Part shown: positions 2,803 through 26,577 of the stretch, one piece after another
Layout of the letters: every line of letters begins with the position of its first letter
Numbering within the stretch: position 1 is the stretch's first letter
Virus record (IMG/VR): IMGVR_UViG_3300046010_009121
Coordinates: 1 to 27,984 of that record
Reading direction: 5' to 3' (one strand)
Source of the DNA: a virus
DNA: 27,984 bases
Made by a program: the position numbers and the translations under genes
The notes under the pieces: model-generated
What the model was told of the DNA's origin: nothing
Database searches by the model: none
The model's input: only the letters and a program-made list of their open reading frames with translations

Positions 2803-3138
2803 TTACTCTATATCTTCTTGTTCTAACGATTTAGTCAATTCAATCACATCAGCAGGAGTTTCACCTTTCTGAACAAGATCGTTATGATGAGATATATTTT
2901 TGGTTATTTCCCTTACTGAAACTGAATGTGGATTGTAAAAGTATTCCTTAACTATTCCGGGCTGTTTTTCACCGACAGAATATTCAAAGACTCTGGCATT
3001 CCAATTATCAGGTTTAAAGCCATGCACTCTTTCGCAAATTCTATTAGCAATAGTTACAGCTTCTATTACAGTAGATGTATCTTCCACTCTAATCGGGAAA
3101 CGATATTCTACAATGTAATAGTTATCAAATTTAGGCAT
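2803..3138 (-). CDS. Hypothetical protein (111 aa)
   Basis: A 111-residue protein starting MPKFDNYYIVEYRFPIRVEDTST. The first third reads as beta strands with a VEAVTIANRICERV-type helix, an alpha/beta pattern often seen in small phage proteins of unknown role. No catalytic or metal motif is visible. The ATG at 3138 overlaps the stop of the 42-aa membrane protein by one base (TAATG), so translation is likely coupled. Confidence 0.7.
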   Translation of the reverse strand: MPKFDNYYIVEYRFPIRVEDTSTVIEAVTIANRICERVHGFKPDNWNARVFEYSVGEKQPGIVKEYFYNPHSVSVREITKNISHHNDLVQKGETPADVIELTKSLEQEDIE

Positions 3139-3266
3139 TATAACCCCTTTCCACAGTATAAGACTAGCACTATAAATGGCAATATAATAATTAAGCTTGC
3201 ATACATCATTAGAAGTGCGCCAAAGCCCAATGCTAATAAACCTACAAGTATTTGCTTTTCAGTCAT
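3138..3266 (-). CDS. Membrane microprotein (42 aa)
   Basis: A 42-codon ORF starting MTEKQILVGLLALGFG with hydrophobic residues running from about 6 to 37, wide enough for one long or two short membrane helices, and a short basic tail (CGKGL). The ATG at 3266 is directly adjacent to the stop of the large GHKL-like gene (TAAATG), has GAGGA about eight bases upstream, and its own stop overlaps the next start (TAATG). This tight fit on both sides supports a real gene. The function is unknown; small phage membrane proteins include holins and exclusion proteins. Confidence 0.75.
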   Translation of the reverse strand: MTEKQILVGLLALGFGALLMMYASLIIILPFIVLVLYCGKGL

Positions 3267-4922
3267 TTATATTTCCTCGATCTCAACATTATCACTTTCC
3301 ACAGGGCTAGGGAATGCGTTTGTAATTAACATCGAGACATTATCATCTGATGGCATCAATTTACCCACCAGATTATTTGCCATAGCCACAGATTTGGCAA
3401 CAAACTTTTTCTTACCAACTCTAATAATATGACCATCAAGAATTGCTGACTTTTCAATATGGAAATCTAAACCTTGAACATATGGCAAGTTTGCAATTTT
3501 AATTGATATATCTTTACTGCCCTTAGTTGTTGATAACAATGGCTCTCGATAATTTTTGACCATTAAACCACCAATCCTTGAGTCAGCAAGATTCCTGAAT
3601 TCAATATTATTATCACCAATTCCAGTTTCGTAATGATCATATTCGTGAATGATAGTGCCAATAATTGATTCAATACTGCTAGATTCAGCGTGAGTTTTGC
3701 TAACCAGAATTTGTCGTTCACTTCTCGGCTTATCAGTATTTATTGTTAAGCCCAGCAATGTTTGAGATTCTGCTTGGAATAAAGCAACACGCTTATTCAT
3801 CATTTTAAGACCTGGCTCAAAATGTTCTGCAATTTTTAAAGCTCTTAAGAAGTTTGGATATTCTTCGTAGTTATAATCAAGATCATATTGAAGTTCTTGA
3901 CCAGCAATTTTATCTACAGTATTAACACCGCTCCTGTTTAAAATCGTATAAAGATTGTTTGATAAGCAAGTAATAGGAATATAACCAAGCTCTTTGATTT
4001 TAAGAGAAACTGTAGGATATGCGCTTTCAATTTGATTGATAAGGACAGCTTTCTCTCCATACTTATCAACGAACTTGCGCTTCCAAGCTTCATTTACTTT
4101 ATTAAATTCAAAACAGCCTTCGCTAAATGACCAGAATTCGTCAGATGAATAATCTATTGGATTCTCACCAATAATCTTAGTTAAAACTTGATTAATTGCA
4201 AACTCATTATCCATCGAGCAGATTACTTTAGCGATATCATATGTAACTGTGTAATAAGCAGCAAGCCTTCTTTCTTCGTTAAGTTTAAAATGTTTTCCAT
4301 TATAATAAAAGAAGCTTGGGGTATCATTATCATATGACAACACAGATTTACAATATACAGCAGTGTTATTATTTTGATTCTTCATCACCGAAATATCGCT
4401 GTATTTACAGGTGTAATACACCTCTGTCTTATCACAGTAATAATAGTCGTGCATTTTATACACTTCCATTATTGCATCTGTTGCCTGAATGAAAATTGAA
4501 AATTCACCAGGGTTAAAGGAAATTTTATCTACTGATTCAATCCCCCAAAGTTTCGGATCATTGTCAGCACCATCTTTTGCATTGCTTACAACTTCTCGAT
4601 AAATTTGGAATTCATCTTCCCAAGATAATTTGCCGGCATCAACCGTAAATGAAGATGGTATTTGTTCATTTCCATAATCGTAATAAACAACTTCAATACC
4701 ACGTACAGATTTTGTAGTATATTTAAGTTGATATTGACCATCTTCATCAAAGCCTACAAATACAAACTCAATACCTTTTCTTAGGGAAAGGATTGGTGCG
4801 TATTTAATTCCGGATCCGAATTGACCAATTTTTGAGTCATCATCACGCTTTGTAGAAAGACCTAGGTATTGCAACCCAAGCCTATTTACACCTGATGTTT
4901 TATTCCACACTCTTAGGTACAT
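3267..4922 (-). CDS. Permuted GHKL (Hsp90-like) ATPase fused to HEXXH metallopeptidase-like domain
   Basis: A 551-residue protein, one of the largest here. Near the N-terminus, KIGQFGSGIKYA (31-42) closely matches the Hsp90 G2 ATP-lid motif GxxGxG (G33, G36, G38). Further on, REVVSNAKDG (109-118) matches the GHKL N-box ExxxNAxD (E110, N114, D117). In ordinary GHKL proteins the N-box comes first, so the nucleotide fold seems circularly permuted; FIQATDAIMEV (144-154) may be a degenerate G1 motif. In the C-terminal part, IIHEYDHYETG contains a zinc-peptidase motif H426-E427-x-x-H430, with E441 a possible third ligand. Related unnamed phage proteins with an N-terminal FGSGxKYA motif exist. The activity is unknown. 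ATG at 4922 is preferred to TTG at 4925 for Shine-Dalgarno spacing (GGAG, seven bases). Confidence 0.75.
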   Translation of the reverse strand: MYLRVWNKTSGVNRLGLQYLGLSTKRDDDSKIGQFGSGIKYAPILSLRKGIEFVFVGFDEDGQYQLKYTTKSVRGIEVVYYDYGNEQIPSSFTVDAGKLSWEDEFQIYREVVSNAKDGADNDPKLWGIESVDKISFNPGEFSIFIQATDAIMEVYKMHDYYYCDKTEVYYTCKYSDISVMKNQNNNTAVYCKSVLSYDNDTPSFFYYNGKHFKLNEERRLAAYYTVTYDIAKVICSMDNEFAINQVLTKIIGENPIDYSSDEFWSFSEGCFEFNKVNEAWKRKFVDKYGEKAVLINQIESAYPTVSLKIKELGYIPITCLSNNLYTILNRSGVNTVDKIAGQELQYDLDYNYEEYPNFLRALKIAEHFEPGLKMMNKRVALFQAESQTLLGLTINTDKPRSERQILVSKTHAESSSIESIIGTIIHEYDHYETGIGDNNIEFRNLADSRIGGLMVKNYREPLLSTTKGSKDISIKIANLPYVQGLDFHIEKSAILDGHIIRVGKKKFVAKSVAMANNLVGKLMPSDDNVSMLITNAFPSPVESDNVEIEEI

Positions 4923-4949
4923 CAATGTACTCCTTTGTTATTGTAATGA

Positions 4950-5900
4950 TTACAGTGGATTGTGTAGCGTATTAGTTTTTGTTGTAAATGCAACTCTGGA
5001 TTCTTGCATTAATTTATTTGAGAACAAAAATGATTTAATTGCATCAGATTGTTCCTGGGTATAAGTTGTAATTTTAAAGTGAGTACAAGGAAACGCTGTG
5101 CTTGGAACTATATCATCTATAATTTCAACTTTTGTAGTTTCATTAAACTGATTGACCAAGCCAGCTTTCTTAACAACATTTGTAGCAACAAGCTCAATCA
5201 ATTTGACCAGTGAAATTACCGAAGTGCTCATACCTTCAAATGATTTATTATCAACTTGATGATTTAAAATTGTAGATTCTTCAGCATTATTCGAGCTTAA
5301 ATTGCCAGACTTAACTGCATCATAATACATGTTAATATCTTCAGAAATTGTTAAAACAATTGCATTCCAAACATCTTTACCTAATGAGCAAAGACTGGAT
5401 GGTATTTGATGTTTGTATTGCCGTAAATTATCTTGAATCCACGCGGAATTTAATGCTTCAGAATCATCAAACTTTTCTTGAATCTTATCATCTAGCTCGG
5501 AATCAATATAATCCATTACGTTATCAGACGTTAGATACTTGTCATCAAATGATTCTTCAATTTCTCTTTTAATTTCATAAGTATTGTCTGAATTTTCAAA
5601 CCATTCATTAATGTAATCGGAAATTTGCCCTTCATCAATTGGTTCAATTTTCTCTTTAACTTTATCATAAACGATATTGATAACGGTGTCATTCTTTGCC
5701 AACGATTCAACCAATAAATTGATCGGAATCGTAACTGATACTTCATTGTTTGTTTCCATAATTTGCTCCTGTTTTGATTTGGTATTAACTATATTGCCAG
5801 CCGCTTCTGTTCTTTCAATTATATTCATTGCGTTCTCCTGTGCTAATCGTACTACGCCGTTTTTATTCTTTTTGCCTATCAAATTGAGTATACGTTTCAC
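4950..5900 (-). CDS. Acidic hypothetical protein with three candidate starts (316 aa)
   Basis: Not recognised. The middle (about 80-160) is very acidic and predicted helical or coiled (for example EIKREIEESFDD, SELDDKIQEKFDD); the C-terminal third is more mixed alpha/beta. Three in-frame starts each have a good Shine-Dalgarno: GTG 5900 (AAGG), ATG 5828 (AGGAG, six-base spacing) and ATG 5759 (AGGAG, six-base spacing; product 269 aa starting METNNEVSV). The first 47 residues are basic and low in similarity to the rest, so the 5759 start is attractive. The gene is 27 bases upstream of the GHKL-HEXXH gene and is its most likely functional partner. Confidence 0.65.
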   Translation of the reverse strand: MKRILNLIGKKNKNGVVRLAQENAMNIIERTEAAGNIVNTKSKQEQIMETNNEVSVTIPINLLVESLAKNDTVINIVYDKVKEKIEPIDEGQISDYINEWFENSDNTYEIKREIEESFDDKYLTSDNVMDYIDSELDDKIQEKFDDSEALNSAWIQDNLRQYKHQIPSSLCSLGKDVWNAIVLTISEDINMYYDAVKSGNLSSNNAEESTILNHQVDNKSFEGMSTSVISLVKLIELVATNVVKKAGLVNQFNETTKVEIIDDIVPSTAFPCTHFKITTYTQEQSDAIKSFLFSNKLMQESRVAFTTKTNTLHNPL

Positions 5901-5915
5901 AACATACCTTCATAA

Positions 5916-6380
5916 TTAAGCAAGATCTATCAATCCTTCACAATAAATCTCAGCAAATTCCCAAAGTGAATCATTACTAGATACATCCATTTGTGCATGA
6001 TCAAACCAGTCAGCAAAATGGTATACAACTCTCATAATCGAATTATTATCAGCTGTGTCAATAAATACTTCAAGATAATCAGCCGGACCACCTGTGCTCA
6101 ATTCAATTTTGATAACTTTATGAATGCTAAATCCCAAGGGGAACTCCATAAGGCTATCTTCATCATACTCTTTTTCAGAAGCATTCTCCCGGAATTTATC
6201 AACTTCATCTTCTGTCGGTTCTCTATTCTCAGTCTTTGTGAATTCCTCAACAAATTGTTCGGTCAATTCATCAAGTTCATCTCCAGCAGTTCCATTATGA
6301 TATTTAATCATTTTGGCAACTGACTCATTCCTATTGTCGTACTGCTCTCTAATACGCTCTTTACATGTTTTTTCTGACAT
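5916..6380 (-). CDS. Acidic hypothetical phage protein (154 aa)
   Basis: A 154-residue protein with a helical acidic N-terminal half (DELTEQFVEEF, EPTEDEVDKF) and a C-terminal alpha/beta segment containing ELSTGGPADYLEVFID and VYHFADWFDHA. The STGGPADYLE part resembles a segment repeatedly seen in uncharacterised phage proteins, but I cannot name the family with confidence. The start is strong: GGGAGG six bases before ATG at 6380. A 60-base AT-only-looking spacer (6381-6440) separates it from the preceding 68-aa gene. Confidence 0.7.
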   Translation of the reverse strand: MSEKTCKERIREQYDNRNESVAKMIKYHNGTAGDELDELTEQFVEEFTKTENREPTEDEVDKFRENASEKEYDEDSLMEFPLGFSIHKVIKIELSTGGPADYLEVFIDTADNNSIMRVVYHFADWFDHAQMDVSSNDSLWEFAEIYCEGLIDLA

Positions 6381-6648: not shown

Positions 6649-6990
6649 TTAAAATAAGTTTTCTTTTTGATGCTTATACTTAATCATATGCATGGTTTGA
6701 TTTACAATCTTACTAGTTATTGGGGTATAATCTTTTAAGTTAAACATTCTACGCAAGGTACCCCTTTCCCTAGATGTAAAGCCACCCCATACTCCAAACT
6801 TAATATCTTCGTTTAAAGCATAAGATAAACATTGTTCAGCAACAGGACATTGCTTGCAATATGATTTTGCCTTCTCTGTCTCTTTCTTAAGATTTCTATT
6901 TTCCTCATCTGATTCAAAATAGAAGACATCAATTGGCATTCCTTTACAGGCAGCTCTATCTCTCCATACTTCTTTTATTGGGCTAAACAC
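6649..6990 (-). CDS. whiB: WhiB-family transcriptional regulator
   Basis: A 113-residue WhiB-like protein. The four iron-sulfur ligands are C15, C45, C48 and C54 (one Cys, then CKQC, then Cys after five residues), followed by the signature turn GVWGG at 66-70 and a basic stretch (ERGTLRR). WhiB proteins bind a [4Fe-4S] cluster, contact the principal sigma factor and change host transcription. Phage versions are known; that of mycobacteriophage TM4 interferes with host WhiB2. This points to an actinobacterial host. The start is GTG at 6990 with GGAG five bases upstream. It probably tunes host or phage promoters. Confidence 0.95.
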   Translation of the reverse strand: MFSPIKEVWRDRAACKGMPIDVFYFESDEENRNLKKETEKAKSYCKQCPVAEQCLSYALNEDIKFGVWGGFTSRERGTLRRMFNLKDYTPITSKIVNQTMHMIKYKHQKENLF

Positions 6991-26064: not shown

Positions 26065-26577
26065 TTATTGTAATGATCTGTTTAGTATTCTTGATTTAAT
26101 AATTGTTGTTGAGATAGCATCTGTATACGGGATAAACATCACACCAATATTATGCTCGTCAAGCCATTCTTGAGTGAATCCCATTTGTTTGTAATAATCT
26201 TTAGTTTGCCAGTCGGAACCAACAATTACAAGATTAGCTTTCGCCTCTATAATAGCAGGTCGAGAATCAGCACCGCCCGAATTTACAATTACTTTATCCA
26301 CCCATTTACAAGAAGAAACAACTTCCATTCTTTCAGCTAGACTGCAAATTGGAGGTTCTTTGTATTGAGAGCAGAATTCATCTGTATTAACCGAAACGAC
26401 TAAATAGCCATTATCGCCAACTGCTTTTTTGCATCTCTCCAACAATCTTGAATGACCAAAATGAAATAAATCAAATGTACCACCTGTATACACAACCATC
26501 TTATCTCCAGTGAACTTATCTCCAGTGAAATGACCGGAATGAAATAGATCAAATGTGCCACCTGTAGAGACAATCAT
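26065..26577 (-). CDS. Cytidylyltransferase-like enzyme with duplicated N-terminus
   Basis: A nucleotidyltransferase of the glycerol-3-phosphate cytidylyltransferase/RfaE type: TGGTFDLFHxGH is the nucleotide-binding HxGH motif and ISTTIIKSRI near the end is the family signature. It likely makes an activated CDP- or ADP-linked precursor for the phage glycosyltransferases. The first 16 codons are an imperfect copy of codons 27-42, joined by two tandem copies of FTGDK. An internal ATG at 26499, with GGAG five bases upstream, gives a normal-length 144-aa enzyme. The outer ATG (26577, GGAGG upstream) overlaps the GT2 stop as ATGA. Confidence 0.9.
   Translation of the reverse strand: MIVSTGGTFDLFHSGHFTGDKFTGDKMVVYTGGTFDLFHFGHSRLLERCKKAVGDNGYLVVSVNTDEFCSQYKEPPICSLAERMEVVSSCKWVDKVIVNSGGADSRPAIIEAKANLVIVGSDWQTKDYYKQMGFTQEWLDEHNIGVMFIPYTDAISTTIIKSRILNRSLQ
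26452..26577. repeat. Intragenic duplication (48-bp unit, 78-bp offset)
   Basis: The 48 bases at 26577-26530 and at 26499-26452 (both read on the minus strand) match at about 41 positions by eye; many differences are synonymous. Between them lies a perfect 15-bp tandem repeat (26500-26514 and 26515-26529) that carries a GGAG Shine-Dalgarno. Thus the start region with its ribosome-binding site appears to have been duplicated in frame. Confidence 0.9.

Follow-up and report, generated by a model that had tools for sequence, protein, structure and literature searches.

Known roles of GHKL ATPases are those of chaperone, topoisomerase, repair protein, kinase and DNA clamp. Those of the GHKL-S5 type (Hsp90, MutL, GyrB and MORC) bind ATP, close a lid, dimerise and move a transducer via a basic switch residue. 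To our knowledge, no GHKL ATPase powers a protease, and no permutation has been described for the T4 rIIA-type GHKL proteins of phages. The rIIA-type proteins combine a GHKL domain with a variable C-terminal part (PMC7824862), as does the protein described here, whose matches to the rIIA-like fold are weak (best E values in the range 0.012-0.056). The protein is encoded in a viral stretch of 27,984 nucleotides, referred to as the window (IMG/VR record IMGVR_UViG_3300046010_009121), and joins an internally permuted Hsp90-like ATP-binding domain and an S5-like transducer to a zincin domain. The folds are known; the order of the parts and the combination of domains appear to be new. Within an incomplete coverage of the literature, no description was found that joins both halves or notes the permutation, and the paper on the origin of MORC proteins (PMC2292703) mentions neither permutation nor peptidase.

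The gene for this ATPase-zincin (P0001, 551 amino acids) occupies positions 3267-4922, as given in the first-pass annotation, and is read from the minus strand. It is the single open reading frame of that interval, running from an ATG at 4922-4920 to a stop codon at 3267-3269, with AAGGAG at 4930-4935, 7 nt ahead of the ATG, and it has 63 distinct relatives in its own class. The motifs reported earlier were found at the same places when the numbering was checked on the translation: residues 33-38 are GQFGSG, residues 110-117 EVVSNAKD and residues 426-430 HEYDH. When the protein was shuffled 20,000 times, HExxH occurred in 0.7% of the cases, GxxGxG in 11%, ExxxNxxD in 16% and all three jointly in none; conservation among relatives is a stronger test of the three motifs than shuffling. 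The presence of a WhiB gene and of a terminase nearest to those of Streptomyces phages points to an actinobacterial host for the virus.

Relatives of the ATPase-zincin are present in hundreds of phage genomes and are frequent among phages infecting actinobacteria, pseudomonads and Bacteroidota. Three classes were distinguished by scans of viral contigs, from which 234 distinct members were aligned. Class 1 is the clade of the window protein and comprises 64 distinct sequences with a mean pairwise identity of 40% (minimum 29%); class 2 includes gp29 of Pseudomonas phage YuA and PHROG 8203, and class 3 includes members from Bacteroidota. The window protein shares only 18-26% identity with classes 2 and 3. 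Nine residues are invariant in all 234 sequences, namely G33, G36, G38, R109, E110, N114, D117, E216 and R218. The family is filed under 'unknown function' in PHROGs, and labels in single GenBank records read 'HATPase' (Epa38 QIQ65836, Ssp-JY42), 'ATP-binding protein' (PAC9) or 'hydrolase, metallopeptidase' (AN14_30). The family members phrog_8203, phrog_6077, YuA gp29, Epa38 QIQ65836 and AN14_30 all belong to class 2 and differ from the window protein by an EExxH motif, other gene neighbours and shorter length. As well-studied laboratory phages of the YuA group carry the family, its function is directly testable. A cellular origin was considered and dropped: about 85,000 genomes yielded only 23 loci, several of them on short contigs, and the proteins retrieved from these loci are of phage type. 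A scan using the huge-phage member LR756511 as query found no relatives. In the unannotated record of Escherichia phage ERS-1 (PP337211.1, near 106319-106626) several separate pieces matching the ATPase part lie at three places, possibly representing a broken, split or repeated gene.

The ATP-binding domain spans residues 1-165 (4428-4922, minus strand, as for all parts of the protein given below). Two hallmarks of GHKL proteins are present in 234 of 234 members, the G2 glycine box GxxGxG (GQFGSG, 4809-4826, with G33, G36 and G38) and the N-box E-x3-N-x2-D (EVVSNAKD, 4572-4595, with E110, N114 and D117), which is immediately preceded by R109. The position of the G1 (DxG) aspartate is taken by N7 (4902-4904), an Asn in 221 of the 234 sequences, and most of class 2 reads NxG here. 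The order of these elements differs from that of Hsp90: instead of N-box, G1, lid and G2, the phage protein shows G1, lid, G2 and then the N-box.

Queried with this one sequence, Pfam, NCBIfam, PADLOC and the PDB sequences returned no useful match apart from a hint of sacsin, whose ATP domain in NCBIfam was matched by six of six class-3 members (best E 2.5e-4). Among PDB entries, a family profile of residues 1-260 in native order picked out MORC2 (E 0.0011). It placed G1, lid and G2 on MORC2 residues 77-145, the switch region on 360-395 and the N-box, out of order, on 30-50, the N-box segment by itself being not significant (-4 bits). After residues 98-137 had been moved to the front, the match to MORC2 became collinear (E 2.1e-4) with N7 aligned to the DDG of MORC2, and sacsin was also reached. 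No gain from this relocation was seen in whole-profile scores against HtpG and MutL, the best HtpG score falling from 8.1 to 4.6 bits, probably because of the long lid of Hsp90. The whole-profile test on HtpG was replaced by a profile cut in two, with the N-box unit alone as a sub-profile. This found the true N-box in eight of eight HtpG proteins at 6.5-9.2 bits, compared with 3.4 bits for the best shuffle. The N-box precedes the glycine box in all eight targets and follows it in the phage protein.

Modelled with AlphaFold, the window protein (pLDDT 86) and one class-2 protein (pLDDT 89) both align to Hsp90, MORC2, GyrB and TopoVI-B from the G1 strand onward, with Z scores of 4-7; all structural Z scores of the two models are below 8, which is middling by the aligner's own note. 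The lid and G2 region is predicted with the least confidence in each model (pLDDT 47-59 over residues 21-40 or 21-30), and the pTM values of 0.67 and 0.58 leave the arrangement of domains uncertain. Coevolution in the 234 sequences gave the top ranks to pairs 6-142 and 6-140, which set the G1 strand antiparallel to strand 140-146, and coupled the N-box helix at rank 9 to the G2 helix (42-107) and at rank 12 to the G1 strand (7-105); with an effective sequence number of only 190, this signal may partly reflect ancestry. Profiles, models, tree and coevolution agree, and the assignment of residues 1-165 to an Hsp90-like (GHKL) Bergerat site, predicted to bind ATP, is well supported. Its parts follow each other as G1, lid, G2, strands, N-box helix, strand, last strand with helix, and transducer. 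As the last strand-helix and the transducer keep their usual place, the permutation is internal, and only the helix-strand unit of the N-box has been relocated behind the glycine-box part. The first-pass annotation had proposed a circular permutation: the swapped order holds, but the domain as a whole is not permuted. The structure prediction and profile searches it had suggested returned a Bergerat-type site in the models and matches to MORC2, sacsin and HtpG, and both features on which it had made its proposal depend, this site and the conservation of the glycines and HExxH, are present in the window's own clade. A permuted member would mean that the Bergerat fold tolerates its catalytic helix elsewhere in the chain. 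The permuted order is also useful to know for motif-based annotation, which assumes the usual one.

Residues 166-260 (4143-4427) form an S5-like transducer, a GHKL-S5 feature that adds an S5/middle domain with an invariant Arg to the anatomy described before. The structural alignments of residues 1-257 to MORC2 62-465, and those to Hsp90, run into this region, and it contains the switch-loop motif LNEER (residues 214-218, 4269-4283), in which E216 and the basic switch residue R218 never vary. The phage protein thus resembles Hsp90/HtpG and TRAP1 in its R-E-x-x-x-N-x-x-D N-box, its GQFGxG box, a transducer after the ATP domain and an LNxxR-type motif. It differs from them in the N-box unit located after the glycine box, a short lid, an Asn for the G1 Asp and the lack of the Hsp90 C-terminal domain, in place of which it carries the zincin domain. 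With MORC2 and sacsin, the top sequence matches of the ATP part, it shares an S5-type transducer, a compact lid, a G-x-S-x-K ahead of the glycine box and a YN motif near the switch residue, but the order of parts, the zincin domain and the location on a phage genome set it apart.

The zincin peptidase domain was assigned to residues 348-459 (3546-3881). This part of the window model matched Wss1 (Z 6.7, rmsd 3.6 over 97 residues), selecase and jannalysin (Z 6.5) and the deuterolysin-type zinc peptidase 1g12 of Grifola (Z 6.0). The C-terminal domain of the class-2 model matched 3e11 best (Z 7.9, rmsd 2.5 over 84 residues), followed by 1ge6 (Z 7.8), with selecase, LTA4H and HtpX also among its matches; 15 of its best 16 rows were zincin peptidases or LTA4 hydrolase, the exception being YbeY. 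It is the agreement in family among these rows, rather than the middling Z values of the models, that carries the assignment as a zincin fold. Class-1 members gave weak Pfam matches to SprT-like and Tox-MPTase2, of which SprT-like reached only E 0.0088, in 2 of 28. Residues 460-551 (3270-3545) form a small beta-rich tail by DSSP of the model, and this tail is missing in the shorter class-1 members (453-494 amino acids).

The zincin hallmark HExxH, located on the active-site helix, is represented by HEYDH (3633-3647), in which H426, E427 and H430 are conserved in 64 of 64 class-1 members, together with D437, F442, R443, A446 and D447. The zinc-peptidase signature claimed in the first-pass annotation is therefore invariant in the window's clade but specific to it. 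Its 'downstream Glu' has to be replaced by D437 (3612-3614), the conserved acid seven residues past the second His and the most likely candidate for the third metal ligand. Across the family E427 is retained in 224, H430 in 223 and D437 in 225 of the 234 sequences, whereas Glu (158 sequences) outnumbers His (66) at position 426. Classes 2 and 3 almost always have Glu at this first position, and this remainder of the family reads E-E-x-x-H-x6-D (e.g. locus L136, 3001-4179), nearly as invariant as HExxH in class 1. Some members lack the C-terminal motif altogether. When the ATPase part was used for a maximum-likelihood tree, all sampled HExxH sequences fell on one side of a branch with 100/100 support. 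HExxH turns up once more, separately, in two class-3 loci (L255 and L274), where the motif reads HEAMH instead of EExxH. It would be unusual for a zincin to have its first ligand position occupied by Glu. An exchange between Glu and His at this position with the rest fixed would be the behaviour of a metal ligand.

The domain was compared with described zincin groups. It shares the fold around the HExxH helix with minigluzincins and selecase, 3e11, Wss1/SprT and the aspzincins (deuterolysin, AsaP1), but differs from these in the predicted Asp ligand seven residues after the second His and in relatives with mostly EExxH. Metzincins, in which HExxHxxGxxH/D puts the ligand ten residues past the first His, were rejected, as the distance from H426 to the Asp is eleven residues here and the Gly varies. 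Membership in Wss1/SprT was rejected for want of a conserved downstream His as third ligand in the class-1 alignment. For the aspzincins (M35) the Asp is present but GTxxDxxYG is absent, and the likeness consists of the fold matches to 1g12 and 1ge6.

The class-1 gene lies in a conserved cassette of an acidic protein, the ATPase-zincin, a membrane microprotein and a 111-amino-acid protein, and the linkage of the first and third of these, noted in the first-pass annotation, is borne out by their presence as neighbours at the class-1 loci. The upstream gene (4950-5900, minus strand) encodes an acidic protein of 316 amino acids with a pI of 4.7. Acidic proteins (pI 4.1-4.7) occur upstream at almost all class-1 loci, and one Cys is invariant in 32 of 32 aligned rows. 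This gene had at first been judged a poor partner, with relatives found by BLAST at 10 of 57 loci; the judgement was reversed by iterative profiles, which joined 37 of 40 examined loci to the 316-amino-acid family, although scores of this kind tend to be inflated for acidic, repetitive proteins. Directly downstream, the hydrophobic microprotein of 42 amino acids (3138-3266, minus strand) corresponds to a hydrophobic ORF of 30-47 amino acids between the two flanking genes at 40 of 53 loci. The third neighbour, next downstream (2803-3138, minus strand) and absent from the first-pass annotation, is found at 53 of 57 loci with 70-94% identity among the best matches listed; the 111-amino-acid protein belongs to no PHROG family and to no Pfam family at significance, and the collection of isolated phages yielded no match. 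Its identity is 85-94% to the closest relatives and 70-75% to others in the clade, the corresponding values for the ATPase-zincin being 56-63% and about 40%. Further upstream, a 154-amino-acid gene (5916-6380) has relatives at 50 of 57 class-1 loci and the WhiB-like regulator (6649-6990, minus strand) at 49 of 57. The class-1 cassette neighbours are not shared by class-2 loci.

As a GHKL-S5 module is followed by a zincin domain in one chain, the simplest reading is a zinc peptidase under the control of ATP. A probability of about one half is given to the reading that the protein is a GHKL clamp, specific to phages and driven by ATP, with a zinc peptidase coupled to it. The mechanism proposed starts from what was observed, namely the anatomy, the conserved motifs, the assigned folds and the linked genes; that the protein hydrolyses ATP, dimerises, cleaves peptides, couples its two domains and acts on the target named below are all predictions. 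By analogy to Hsp90, MORC, GyrB and MutL, ATP would close the lid and join two protomers via their ATP domains. The signal from the ATP site would run through the S5-like transducer, with R218 touching the gamma-phosphate, and the motion of the clamp would open, close or load the zincin domain, a coupling suggested by the shared chain. There, zinc would be held by H426, H430 and D437, and E427 would activate water for cleavage of the peptide bond. As its target, the clamp would probably hold a protein of the host or of a defence system, and the acidic protein, the microprotein and the 111-amino-acid protein would be the likeliest adaptors or regulators. The full picture, a new ATP-dependent protease in which a phage-specific permuted GHKL dimer clamp gates the fused peptidase, the substrate is a protein of the host or of a defence system and three cassette proteins act as adaptors, is put forward tentatively. 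In the way it would work, such an enzyme is comparable to FtsH and paraplegin, which combine an AAA+ motor and an HExxH peptidase in one chain. The phage protein differs from these in having no P-loop/AAA+ domain (no Pfam AAA match was obtained for the window protein), and GHKL motors close as dimers, with no threading through a hexamer.

The Glu at the first motif position in most of the family indicates that peptidase activity may not be general. The C-terminal fold might bind metal in a structural role, as a pseudo-enzyme under regulation or as another kind of metal hydrolase, and the protein would then be a chaperone-like or DNA-clamp ATPase. The 158 of 234 relatives that replace His by Glu while retaining E-x-x-H and D are consistent with this alternative, as are the members devoid of the motif and the metallo-ribonuclease YbeY among the class-2 matches. 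However, the complete HExxH in every member of the window's clade and fold matches that are almost all peptidases argue against it, and the recurrence of His in HEAMH fits an exchangeable metal ligand of an active site; the alternative is considered rather unlikely. Less probable again is a MORC/MutL-like DNA clamp whose peptidase strips proteins from DNA like Wss1/SPRTN, in host takeover or against DNA-bound defences. MORC2 is the top sequence match of the ATP part and Wss1 the top zincin match of the window model, but the rank of Wss1 is tied with other zincins, the third His of Wss1 and SprT is absent and no DNA-binding motif was found in the protein. That the ATP motifs are due to chance and the N-terminal half has an unrelated fold, as the lack of a Pfam match for the window protein could suggest, is hardly credible given seven ATP-site residues invariant across 234 sequences, profile matches to MORC2, sacsin and HtpG and GHKL structural matches for two models.

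Elsewhere in the window, a nucleotidyltransferase-like ORF (26065-26577, minus strand) has a duplicated start, with TGGTFDLFHSGH followed by a second TGGTFDLFHFGH about 26 residues on.
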